64,000 nt of DNA from the NCBI RefSeq assembly GCF_020097835.1, contig NZ_CP083666.1, positions 124,001 to 188,000 of the forward strand. Direction: 5' to 3'. The DNA is from Haloprofundus halobius (GTDB lineage: Archaea; Halobacteriota; Halobacteria; Halobacteriales; Haloferacaceae). A program made the position numbers and the translations under genes. This document shows positions 14,229-60,155 of this stretch, piece by piece (position 1 is the first letter of the stretch; each line of letters starts with the position of its first letter). The notes beneath the pieces were generated by a model. That model was not told the DNA's origin and searched no databases. It saw only the letters and a program-made list of their open reading frames with translations.

Positions 14229-15464
14229 GTGTCCGAGACGGTGACGAAGACGCTACAGGCCACGCTCGCAACTCCCACCACGGGCAAAGAGCAACGCCTA
14301 CAGCGACTCTTGGACACCTACCGCAACGCACTCCACGACGCCTTCGACAACAGGGCAGATACAATGTCTGCCGTCAACGACATTGTAACGCCCTACGACC
14401 TGCCGTACCAAGCCAAAGACGCGCTCAAATCCTACGTCCCGAAACTCCGCCGGACGTATCACGCCGAGGAGTTAGACGACGAGCACCCGCTTCGACTTGT
14501 CAATCGGGCCGCGAAGTTCGACTACTCGGAGGAGCGCGAACACGGCTTCGTGTGGCAAGCCCCGCAACCCGGTCACGGGACGAACTTTTGGATTCCGCTC
14601 CGTATCAACCCCGAACAGGAATTCCAGTGGTTCGACCTGCTCTCCGAGGACGCGAAGGCAGGTGAGTTGCGGCTACAGCGACATCGCACGTCGTGGGAGT
14701 TGCACGTCACCGTCGAATACTCGGTCGAAGAACCGACCAACTCGGACGACGAGACGTACATCGGTTTCGACGTAGGTGAGAACGCGTTGATAACGGGCTG
14801 TGCCCTCAAACGCGACGTACCACGGAAGCCGATGCTCGTCAGCGGCAGTCAATCGAGGCATCTCCGCAAAGAGATGTTCACCACACTTCGGCGGCTACAA
14901 TCGAGAGACGCCGCCGAGTGGCGTGTGGACGAACGATTCGACCACTACCAAAACGCTCTGACGGATATTGTCGAGAAAGCGTCTCGCCAAGCCGTCGAAT
15001 ACGCTCGTTCCTTCGAGAATCCCGTTATTGTCCTCGAAGACCTGTCGTACATCCGCGAGCGGTTGGACTACGGCAAGTTCATGAACCGCCGTCTTCATGC
15101 GTGGGCGTTCGCCCGGCTACAGGGTCGAATCGAAGACAAAGCGACCGAGGCAGGGATTCGAGTCGAGTACGTCAACGCAGCGTATACCTCGCAGACGTGC
15201 CACGCTTGCGGTCGGCTCGGTCGTCGGAGTCAGCAAGCGGAGTTTGTGTGTCCACACGACGACTGCCACGTATCAGAGTTCCAAGCAGACATTAACGCGG
15301 CGGCGAACATCGCCAGTCGCGCTAACCCGTGGGGAGAGAGCGTCCGTTGGGAACCCGGACGCGATGACTCGCCTCGGGATGGGAGCGCCTGTGACAGCGC
15401 CACAGTCCACCGAGAGACGAGTCCGAAAACCGGACAGATGACGCTCTCGGTGTTTTCGGACTGA
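14229..15464 (+). CDS. tnpB: TnpB RNA-guided nuclease (IS1341-type)
   Basis: 411 residues, GTG start. The split RuvC nuclease site is complete: D181 (YIGFDVGEN), E270 (VIVLEDLSY) and D354 (EFQADINAAAN). A zinc finger lies between the last two: C324, C327, C341 and C346 (TCHACG and VCPHDDC). The C-terminal tail after NPWGESVRW (from about 366) is the usual haloarchaeal extension, whose DNA probably also specifies part of the guide RNA. TnpB proteins are omega-RNA-guided DNA nucleases that keep their element in place after excision. Nothing looks broken, so activity is plausible. Confidence 0.92.
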   Translation: MSETVTKTLQATLATPTTGKEQRLQRLLDTYRNALHDAFDNRADTMSAVNDIVTPYDLPYQAKDALKSYVPKLRRTYHAEELDDEHPLRLVNRAAKFDYSEEREHGFVWQAPQPGHGTNFWIPLRINPEQEFQWFDLLSEDAKAGELRLQRHRTSWELHVTVEYSVEEPTNSDDETYIGFDVGENALITGCALKRDVPRKPMLVSGSQSRHLRKEMFTTLRRLQSRDAAEWRVDERFDHYQNALTDIVEKASRQAVEYARSFENPVIVLEDLSYIRERLDYGKFMNRRLHAWAFARLQGRIEDKATEAGIRVEYVNAAYTSQTCHACGRLGRRSQQAEFVCPHDDCHVSEFQADINAAANIASRANPWGESVRWEPGRDDSPRDGSACDSATVHRETSPKTGQMTLSVFSD

Positions 15465-15528
15465 AACCTTCCAAGCCGGATTCCCACCGTGTGGGAAGCC
15501 CCGCTGTTTACGGCGGGGAGGATGTCAC
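15350..15528 (+). ncRNA. Candidate omega RNA / sense-overlapping transcript of tnpB
   Basis: Family knowledge: TnpB guide RNAs derive from the tnpB 3' end and right terminus, and Halobacterium IS1341-type elements produce sense-overlapping transcripts there. Here two strong hairpins follow the stop codon (15482-15498 and 15500-15519); the guide would start just past the right end, about 15529. The 5' boundary given is a guess. Confidence 0.4.
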
Positions 15529-23201: not shown

Positions 23202-24014
23202 ATGGCCGTCCTGAATGCCCTCCGAAAAGTGCCCGGTGCGTTGGCCCGAAATCCGATACTCGTCGCGTTGCTCGGATTCGTCGGTCTCCTGCAGGCACCA
23301 CAGACGCTCGCACAGTACCTGAACTCAACCGTCTCGATCGTCATCTCGCTGATCTTTACCCTGGTGTACCTCTTCGGCGTCCCGTTCTTCCAGGGCGGGA
23401 TGATCGGAATGGCCGACGAGGCGCTCAGAAACCGGACGAGACTCGGAACGTTCGTCCAGGCCGGCAAGGAGAACTACGTCTCCCTGCTCGTCGCGTACCT
23501 CGCGATGACGGGTGTCGTCCTCGTCTTGATGCTCGTCGTCTTCGCCGCCGTGTTCGCCGGGATCTTCTCCATCGGGACCGGCAGCCAGAACGGCCTGGTG
23601 GTCGCCGTCGGCGTCGTCCTCGTCGTCGGCCTCGTCTACCTCGTGTTCGCGTTCTTCATCCAGTTCTACAGCCACGAGATCGTCCTGAACGACGCCGGTG
23701 CCGTCTCGGGGATCAAAGGAAGCGTCGGCCTCGTCAGACGGAACCTCCTGAGCACGACCGGCTACTTCCTCCTCACGATAGCCGGTTCCCTCGCGGTCGT
23801 CGTCGCCGTCGTCGCGGCGCAGTTCCTCCTGCTGCCGCAGTCGGCTCCAGGCACCATGCCTGCACAGCCTCCGCTGACCAGCGCCCTCGGACAGGTCGTG
23901 GTCAGCACCGTCGTCACCGCAGTCGTCGGGAGTCTGTTCGCGGTGTACTCGGTCGCGTTCTACGAGGAGATTCGCGACCATCGGAACAGCCCGGAGCAAG
24001 CGACGACTCTCTGA
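23202..24014 (+). CDS. DUF7847-like multi-pass membrane protein
   Basis: 270 residues, six predicted helices: LARNPILVALLGFVGLLQ, VSIVISLIFTLVYLFGVPFF, SLLVAYLAMTGVVLVLMLVV, LVVAVGVVLVVGLVYLVFAF, TTGYFLLTIAGSLAVVVAVV and QVVVSTVVTAVVGSLFAVYS. The amphipathic FFQGGMIGMADEALRNRTRL after helix 2 and HEIVLNDAGAVSGIKGSVGL before helix 5 are the recurring loops of this haloarchaeal family, which resembles the membrane part of glycerophosphodiester phosphodiesterases. Role unknown. AGTTAGATATC near 23184-23195 may be part of the promoter region. Confidence 0.7.
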   Translation: MAVLNALRKVPGALARNPILVALLGFVGLLQAPQTLAQYLNSTVSIVISLIFTLVYLFGVPFFQGGMIGMADEALRNRTRLGTFVQAGKENYVSLLVAYLAMTGVVLVLMLVVFAAVFAGIFSIGTGSQNGLVVAVGVVLVVGLVYLVFAFFIQFYSHEIVLNDAGAVSGIKGSVGLVRRNLLSTTGYFLLTIAGSLAVVVAVVAAQFLLLPQSAPGTMPAQPPLTSALGQVVVSTVVTAVVGSLFAVYSVAFYEEIRDHRNSPEQATTL

Positions 24015-59453: not shown

Positions 59454-59673
59454 TCGGTCACTCCATCTAACTCCCGTCTTTCGACGCACGACGGCGCGAC
59501 GATGATATCCGTCGACGAGCTATCGAACGTATGGTTCGGCGACGACTCGTTGCGCTCTTGGAACTCGCATTCTCCGCTCTCCTGCTGCTGTTCGAGCGAT
59601 GGTTCCGTGAGGAAGCGACGAGGCGGGGAAATCCCGTTCCGTCGCCGCCGGCGATCGTCTCCAGTACGCTGTT
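59454..59673. other. Intergenic, nothing recognised
   Basis: About 220 bases between the arylsulfotransferase-like gene and a hairpin-bounded element. Frames across it are shadow-like. Confidence 0.35.
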
Positions 59674-60003
59674 TGACCTCCTCCCGCGCCTGAAGACGCG
59701 GGAATCCCACCACGGGATTCGGGCGGCCGATGCCCTTCGGTCCCAACCCGCACTCGGAGGGAACCGGCGACACACCGGGGGAACTCTCGTTTAACTCCCT
59801 CGTAGGGCTGTGGTCCGGCCAATGAGGCCCCATCGGATTCCGTGTCATCGCCGTGGGAACCACCGTCGGTTCCCCACCCCTTGTGGTTCGGGGACGGCAT
59901 CTCACCGAATCCGTAGTATCCTTGAGAACACGGGACACGGGTGAAGGGATTCCGGTGGGGAAACGAGGCCAAATGTCGCTTGACCCCCGCCTGAAGACGG
60001 GGG
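59674..60003 (-). mobile_element. Gene-less IS1341-type element or free-standing structured RNA locus
   Basis: Two hairpins in the same orientation bound about 330 bp: CCCGCG-cctgaaga-CGCGGG (59683-59702) and CCCCCG-cctgaaga-CGGGGG (59984-60003), each preceded on the plus strand by TTGACC. Read on the minus strand the left one ends GGAGGAGGTCAA, matching the right end of the TnpB element (GGAGGATGTCA) and the family TCAA cut site. The interior codes no protein but has internal repeats such as GGGAACC-N4-GGTTCCC and CACCGAATCC/GGATTCCGGTG. Probably a non-autonomous derivative keeping the guide-RNA region. Confidence 0.6.
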
Positions 60004-60155
60004 TATGCGCTCGAATCTCTATCATCTCGGCTACCGGCTCTGGCACGGCCTGCTCCGGCCGCTTCCCGGCACCGACGACTGATCGAGTCGGTGTCCGGCG
60101 CTCGGAGTCGACCTCCGACCGGACGATTTTTCGCCTCACCGCCGGACGACGGGAT

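Follow-up and report, generated by a model that had tools for sequence, protein, structure and literature searches.

A 348-bp locus in the genome of Haloprofundus halobius consists of the two ends of an IS200/IS605-type transposon and, between them, the scaffold of a TnpB guide RNA (omega-RNA). We consider it likely that this locus is a nonautonomous IS200/IS605-type element, a palindrome-associated transposable element (PATE), that no longer has tnpA and tnpB but keeps both ends and the full omega-RNA, and that would use TnpA and TnpB in trans. The locus is a unit with precise ends, was inserted 3' of a TGAT, and has spread as a unit; its interior is homologous to omega-RNAs and shares their structure, and matching autonomous elements are present. 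By comparison with tnpB-linked RNAs, the interior of the element is a complete omega-RNA scaffold, and the element probably borrows both proteins, TnpA and TnpB, from other elements. The class of mobile unit is already known (PATEs; PMC3119063), and the omega-RNA content is the new part. The window referred to throughout is the whole stretch that we analyzed, 64,000 nucleotides (positions 124,001 to 188,000 of NZ_CP083666.1), and its relevant features are listed in Table 1.

Table 1. Features of the element, its insertion site, and the TnpB gene at 14229 (window positions)
Feature	Positions	Strand	Evidence or remark
Mobile element, 348 bp	59673..60020	-	Left end, variable linker, omega-RNA, right end
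Target TGAT adjoining left end	60021..60024	-	Kept in empty sites L188 and L190; starts nearly all copies
Left-end subterminal hairpin ACCCCCGTCTTCAGGCGGGGGT	59983..60004	-	Same hairpin in left ends of the chromosome's tnpA-tnpB elements
Variable linker between left end and omega-RNA	59919..59976	-	Alignment; AT-rich (TATA-like) box in most copies
Omega-RNA scaffold, 246 nt, conserved structured domain	59673..59918	-	Covariation in 17/69 pairs
Part matched by model R1, model positions 1-175 of 175	59673..59850	-	87.0 bits, E = 5.2e-22
5' long irregular hairpin of omega-RNA	59834..59913	-	Helix 1 and inner helices
GGCC hairpin; loop TTGGCC (59817-59822) is the pseudoknot strand	59812..59829	-	Covariation, pseudoknot alignment
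Hairpin AATCCCGTGGTGGGATT ahead of right-end hairpin	59702..59720	-	Helix 11, compensatory changes
Right-end hairpin, the 3' hairpin of the omega-RNA	59682..59703	-	Helix 12; compensatory changes in 4/5 pairs
Terminal GGTCAA of right end	59673..59678	-	3' strand of omega-RNA pseudoknot; guide directly after
Predicted guide, first 20 nt of flank, ACAGCGTACTGGAGACGATC	59653..59672	-	From omega-RNA anatomy
Small ORF, 5' part, interrupted by element	59531..59672	+	Resumes 60021-60082; flanks joined give 67 aa
TnpB named in the first-pass annotation	14229..15464	+	PF07282, 64.1 bits; RuvC D-E-D read directly in sequence
Omega-RNA of the 14229 TnpB	15362..15528	+	R1 79.0 bits, E = 7.7e-20

The ends of the element recur at tnpB elements

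The first-pass annotation of this DNA, which was made from the sequence alone, had described a locus at 59674-60003 that is bounded by two hairpins. The locus stands. These coordinates stop slightly short of the element's left end: the element runs from 59673 to 60020, with the target TGAT at 60021-60024. Both hairpins are real. On the plus strand (59682-59703 and 59983-60004) they have the core CGCCTGAAGACG in common with TTGACC before each, and the minus strand of the locus ends in GGAGGAGGTCAA, the sequence that had been likened to a right end. We found that both ends of the locus also delimit tnpB elements elsewhere on the chromosome, full tnpA-tnpB elements among them, so that their description as IS1341-type was correct. 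In a BLAST search of the element against its own genome, the left end matched over 37-49 nt at 85-95% identity (C1:68140, 21726, and 1824508) and the right end over 33-53 nt at 89-97% identity (C1:69913-69965, 23285-23320, and 1822712-1822758), and several of the end matches flank tnpB genes. Because the same ends recur at the chromosome's tnpB elements, the hairpins are not due to chance. Most tnpB elements with this left end start with TGATA. The two similar hairpins could also be read as two tandem right ends, and we rejected this reading because the hairpin at 59983 matches left ends.

As had been noted, the locus codes for no recognizable protein. Open frames differ among 22 copies of the element, and some copies have none; no frame is common to the copies, and we therefore rejected a protein reading of the interior. 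Neither tnpA nor tnpB is carried, and thus the element is not an autonomous IS200/IS605 (IS1341) element. Its own genome holds a single copy of the 348-bp element. The same chromosome has an ends-only remnant at C1:2170855-2170905 (L007) in which left and right end are directly fused, as in the terminal-only PATEs of 52 bp known from Haloquadratum.

In the window, the element interrupts a small ORF. A congener (G002) is without the element at this site, and there BLAST shows the ORF to be continuous in a 126-aa frame; the target in the congener is TGGT, not TGAT, and the ORF also differs further downstream.

The element has spread as a unit among haloarchaea

Similar units are found elsewhere, both as complete copies and as interior matches across many genomes. 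There are 25 other copies with both element ends in other haloarchaeal genomes, none with tnpB. The homologous copies align from window position 60024 down to 59673 and stop at both limits. They begin with TGATAGAG and end with GGTCAA. Eighteen of the 25 are 345-354 bp long, two are 325 bp, two are ~438 bp, and three are longer. The two 325-bp copies have a linker deletion in common, and the two ~438-bp copies have a tandem duplication of el109-151 (el positions are counted downwards from window 60024). This duplication, which covers the 5' part of the omega-RNA, was seen at L027, L070, and L123, all in one genus.

The flanks of the copies are unrelated except in L042 and L043, which come from two species of a single genus and share one insertion site. 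In two more species of that genus (L188 and L190) the site is empty. The empty site reads ...ATCCACCG TGAT ATCTTCCTCGC..., whereas the filled site reads TGAT-element-ATCTTCCTCGC. Insertion is therefore 3' of TGAT with no duplication of the target, as for IS200/IS605 elements. By IS605 logic, the TGAT beside the left end would also be the TAM. At these empty sites of another copy, the guide sequence directly follows TGAT (...TGAT ATCTTCCTCGCTGTTT, that is, TAM plus guide), which is the placement of the guide in Table 1.

Copies within one genome are closely alike: three on one plasmid of Halobaculum magnesiiphilum are 96.5-97.7% alike, and two in genome G091 are 96.3% alike. Interior matches of >60 nt, with short tnpB-derived matches left out of the counts, occur in 37/170 genomes and in 13/28 genera of the family, and the interior is matched over its full length in at least five other families of the same order. 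Among the carriers are Halobaculum, Halorubrum, Haloplanus, Halegenticoccus, Halomicroarcula, Halorussus, Halocatena, and Saliphagus. For the best plasmid matches, the database annotation underneath is "none" or "hypothetical protein." We found no copy of the 348-bp family in phage records, which held only the second family described below, and none of the viral contigs carries the element's motif. A match in a Proteobacteria MAG (L128) was rejected as a copy, since it has the motif alone without the element. A degenerate copy (L110, 5995-6370; 70%) lies on a contig binned as Candidatus Nanosalinarum, which could reflect either misbinning or transfer into a nanoarchaeal symbiont. At L185 (1380-1859), a member of the family and a tnpB element of related right end are arranged tail to tail.

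The element has the features of PATEs: it is short, has no conserved protein, has near-terminal IS605-like palindromes, and is a discrete mobile unit without terminal inverted repeats or target duplication, with copies >90% identical within a genome. From the unit structure, the shared ends, and the clean empty sites, we conclude that it belongs to this known class.

The interior matches the omega-RNAs of tnpB elements

It had been suggested that the locus might keep a guide-RNA scaffold and that it be compared with the segment at 15350-15528. We built a covariance model, R1, from 31 tnpB-linked RNAs only. R1 matches the locus end to end and also finds the omega-RNA within the compared segment (87.0 and 79.0 bits, respectively), against a search background of at most 16 bits, barring one genuine neighboring tnpB end. 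The scaffold has thus been kept. R1 also finds the omega-RNA of one Halobacterium salinarum TnpB (175 bits); omega-RNAs of the IS200/IS605 TnpBs of this species are expressed (PMC12558985). A scan of the window with Rfam gave no matches at the gathering threshold. Many further copies scored 55-99 bits with R1, compared with 167-216 bits for tnpB-linked omega-RNAs, and the middle segment of the element's scaffold differs from that of tnpB-linked omega-RNAs. Two segments, el175-216 and el306-352, match tnpB 3' ends in many genomes in the same order and at the same spacing.

Since the R1 score is in part a sequence score, we tested structure separately. The locus folds better than shuffled sequence, although modestly for a single sequence: z was -2.1 as RNA (5/200 shuffles) and -2.4 as DNA (1/100 shuffles). 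The strong evidence is comparative. Compensatory changes were found in 17 of 69 predicted pairs among 22 copies, and 0/500 shuffles reached the observed values; cells were paired in 96.8%, versus 31-48% when the structure was slid along the alignment, with the structure derived from the same 22-copy alignment, which favors it. The compensatory counts are spread across 8 of 12 helices. The several internal complementary segments that had been pointed out in the locus are these helices. A pseudoknot joins the loop TTGACC or TTGGCC to the terminal GGTCAA, and a second type joins GTGACA to TGTCAC. In 70 omega-RNAs this pseudoknot is paired in 97.8% of cells (9-53% on sliding), and it covaries between families. 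In the H. salinarum omega-RNAs, the loop of the second hairpin likewise pairs with the transposon end as a pseudoknot (PMC12558985).

In a tree of the RNAs, the copies of the family all fall into a single group that lies among the tnpB-linked RNAs, with low support (0.55). No tnpB-linked RNA falls inside this group, which is joined only by a decayed copy in a congener. A single group without tnpB-linked members speaks against repeated independent decay.

The conserved domain begins at ~59918. Upstream of it, the linker has diverged freely, the AT-rich box excepted. This box lies ~36-42 nt upstream of a GGTGAG anchor, a placement reached in 0/2000 permutations among copies that are related to each other. 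It is weak in the window copy (equivalent position ~59942-59948). The box would put a start site near the 5' end of the conserved domain, which is suggestive only. A scan for sigma-70 promoters and terminators, with models not suited to archaea, found nothing.

Candidate partners lie in matching IS605 elements

The first-pass annotation had named the TnpB at 14229 as the one that the locus might supply. Right end, pseudoknot type, and tree position favor other elements. The pseudoknot of the locus is TTGGCC/GGTCAA, whereas that of the 14229 omega-RNA is GTGACA/TGTCAC. All three features tie the locus to two TnpB elements of the chromosome outside the window, at 68-70 kb and at 1.822-1.825 Mb, and the TnpBs of these matching IS605 elements are likelier partners than the one at 14229.

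The genome has three Y1 transposases and 15 TnpB-domain matches. The two TnpAs with matching ends (L230, 68-70 kb; L231, 1.822-1.825 Mb) are each without one, different, HUH histidine: their motifs are PDYIHLF and PDHINLF, compared with PDHIHLF or PDHVHLF, with both histidines kept, in relatives. The third TnpA has an intact HUH motif but belongs to a different element type. Because of these histidine losses, the window copy may be immobile at present. The TnpB at 1.822-1.825 Mb has an open frame, the catalytic D-E-D, and an omega-RNA of its own (185 bits), and the right end of its element is 96% identical to the locus. At L230, the tnpB frame is open without the usual N terminus. Across genomes, the association between the element and the matching tnpB omega-RNA group was not significant (22/37 versus 56/130; p = 0.09).

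A second family has an omega-RNA without tnpB

R1 finds further tnpB-less omega-RNAs in the same genome, including one at C1:109748-109921. It belongs to a unit of ~0.5 kb (C1 ~109,380-109,921; L152; outside the window) of a different family, unrelated to the window element. Plasmids of Natrinema and Haladaptatus carry units that are 79-82% identical to this one over its length, and the unit also matches plasmid pR1SE and virus HRTV-DL1 (OP630574, 601-1089). The length of the viral match equals that of the 489-bp PATE described there (PMC10544981). R1 places an omega-RNA at the 3' end of the viral unit (OP630574, 915-1089; 55.6 bits) and finds one in pR1SE (59.0 bits). The 3' end of the HRTV-DL1 PATE is strongly transcribed during infection, with reads reported antisense to ORF3, and its authors proposed an ncRNA, not an omega-RNA (PMC10544981). 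The omega-RNA that we find lies in the sense of ORF3, opposite to the reported reads unless the library was reverse-stranded. Elsewhere in the genome of the window, an omega-RNA at G000:C2:407046-407223 (L153) is also without tnpB, save ~31 C-terminal codons.

Discussion

As a PATE with an omega-RNA, the locus may work as follows. A matching IS605 element would supply the Y1 transposase (TnpA), which would excise and insert the PATE as single-stranded DNA. The minus-strand omega-RNA would be transcribed from a promoter in the linker or from outside, and its guide would be the 16-20 nt that follow the right end. TGAT plus guide, the sequence of an empty allele that excision has left or a partner chromosome has brought in, would then be cut by a matching TnpB acting in trans, and repair would copy the element back. 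The element's own guide would be reprogrammed at each insertion. For TnpB elements in bacteria, this retention model is established (PMC11870625).

The locus might instead be a decayed IS1341 element that lost tnpB by deletion and whose omega-RNA is a passive fossil, kept solely for its overlap with the right end. In Haloquadratum, PATEs are documented to have arisen by deletion of an element's core (PMC3119063), and the ends-only remnant at G000:C1:2170855 of the same genome fits such decay. However, the order of left end, linker, and omega-RNA recurs in 37/170 genomes of the family and in at least five further families as one clade, and compensatory changes are found in helices and in the pseudoknot far from the ends while the linker diverged freely. 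We therefore regard decay as unlikely. A use of the RNA other than homing would be that of a decoy, which would bind TnpB in trans but lead to no productive cleavage, and so would make autonomous IS605 elements less active or shield the host. The distinct middle of the scaffold, visible in R1 scores of 55-99 compared with 167-216 bits, makes binding without cleavage possible, but the 3' hairpins, the pseudoknot, and the right end adjoining the guide are kept, as expected of a guide in use, and a decoy would not need the link between TGAT target and guide. A decoy is, in our judgment, quite improbable. It is more doubtful still that the structure was selected as folded single-stranded DNA for transposition and not as RNA. 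IS200/IS605 elements do move single stranded with subterminal hairpins that are read by TnpA, and the strand also folds as DNA (z = -2.4). However, TnpA requires only the end hairpins, and the interior matches the tnpB-linked omega-RNA model over its full length, including the loop-to-end pseudoknot. That this could be so by DNA folding seems very improbable to us.

TnpB is usually thought to serve its own transposon. A broader reading, to which we give about even chances, is that haloarchaea have guide-only transposons, in at least two independent and widespread element families with an omega-RNA alone between their ends; a virus and a plasmid also carry one of these families. The elements would exploit the TnpA of other elements for movement and their TnpB for restoration to empty alleles, and each insertion would direct TnpB to the site that it occupies. 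Such homing should pay in haloarchaea, which are polyploid and exchange DNA. As a class of noncoding mobile repeats, PATEs have been known since 2011, and the literature on them that we covered gives no reason for their conserved interiors. An omega-RNA inside PATEs would explain these interiors and would make PATEs hyperparasites of TnpB. TnpBs could then be loaded with guides from other loci, including guides on viruses and plasmids.

Guide RNAs without an adjacent nuclease gene also occur outside haloarchaea: Altae-Tran and colleagues reportedly found stand-alone IscB omega-RNA loci in Ktedonobacter in 2021, which differ from the element in nuclease and RNA family. Among papers available without subscription, we found none that links a PATE to an omega-RNA; a subscription paper may hold an earlier report. 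PATEs were described in Haloquadratum walsbyi by Dyall-Smith et al. in 2011 (PMC3119063) as short elements without a transposase gene, with IS605-like near-terminal palindromes and no target duplication, in several homogeneous families, and the window element is like them in these respects. One of them, HqIRS71, resembles an extended terminal segment that includes the tnpB C terminus (PMC3119063). In contrast to our element, they predate omega-RNAs, and their guide-RNA content and pseudoknot were unrecognized; our comparison with the HqIRS families is by description only (PMC3119063). A PATE-like sequence of 271 nt in Halanaerobium hydrogeniformans has a left-end hairpin, the last 58 nt of tnpB, and an entire right end (PMC7290912), and it probably keeps an omega-RNA too. 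It differs in being a single bacterial copy without evidence of spread (PMC7290912). ISDra2 (PMC8612924) and the haloarchaeal elements with omega-RNAs (PMC12558985) share with the window element the ends, insertion beside a short fixed target, an omega-RNA overlapping the right end, and the pseudoknot of second loop and transposon end. Unlike IS200/IS605 elements with TnpB, it lacks tnpA and tnpB and has a distinct middle omega-RNA segment. The 489-bp PATE of HRTV-DL1 and pR1SE (PMC10544981) is also tnpB-less with an omega-RNA at its 3' end, but its pseudoknot is GTGACA/TGTCAC, and its relative in this genome is the unit at C1 ~109.4-109.9 kb, not the window element.
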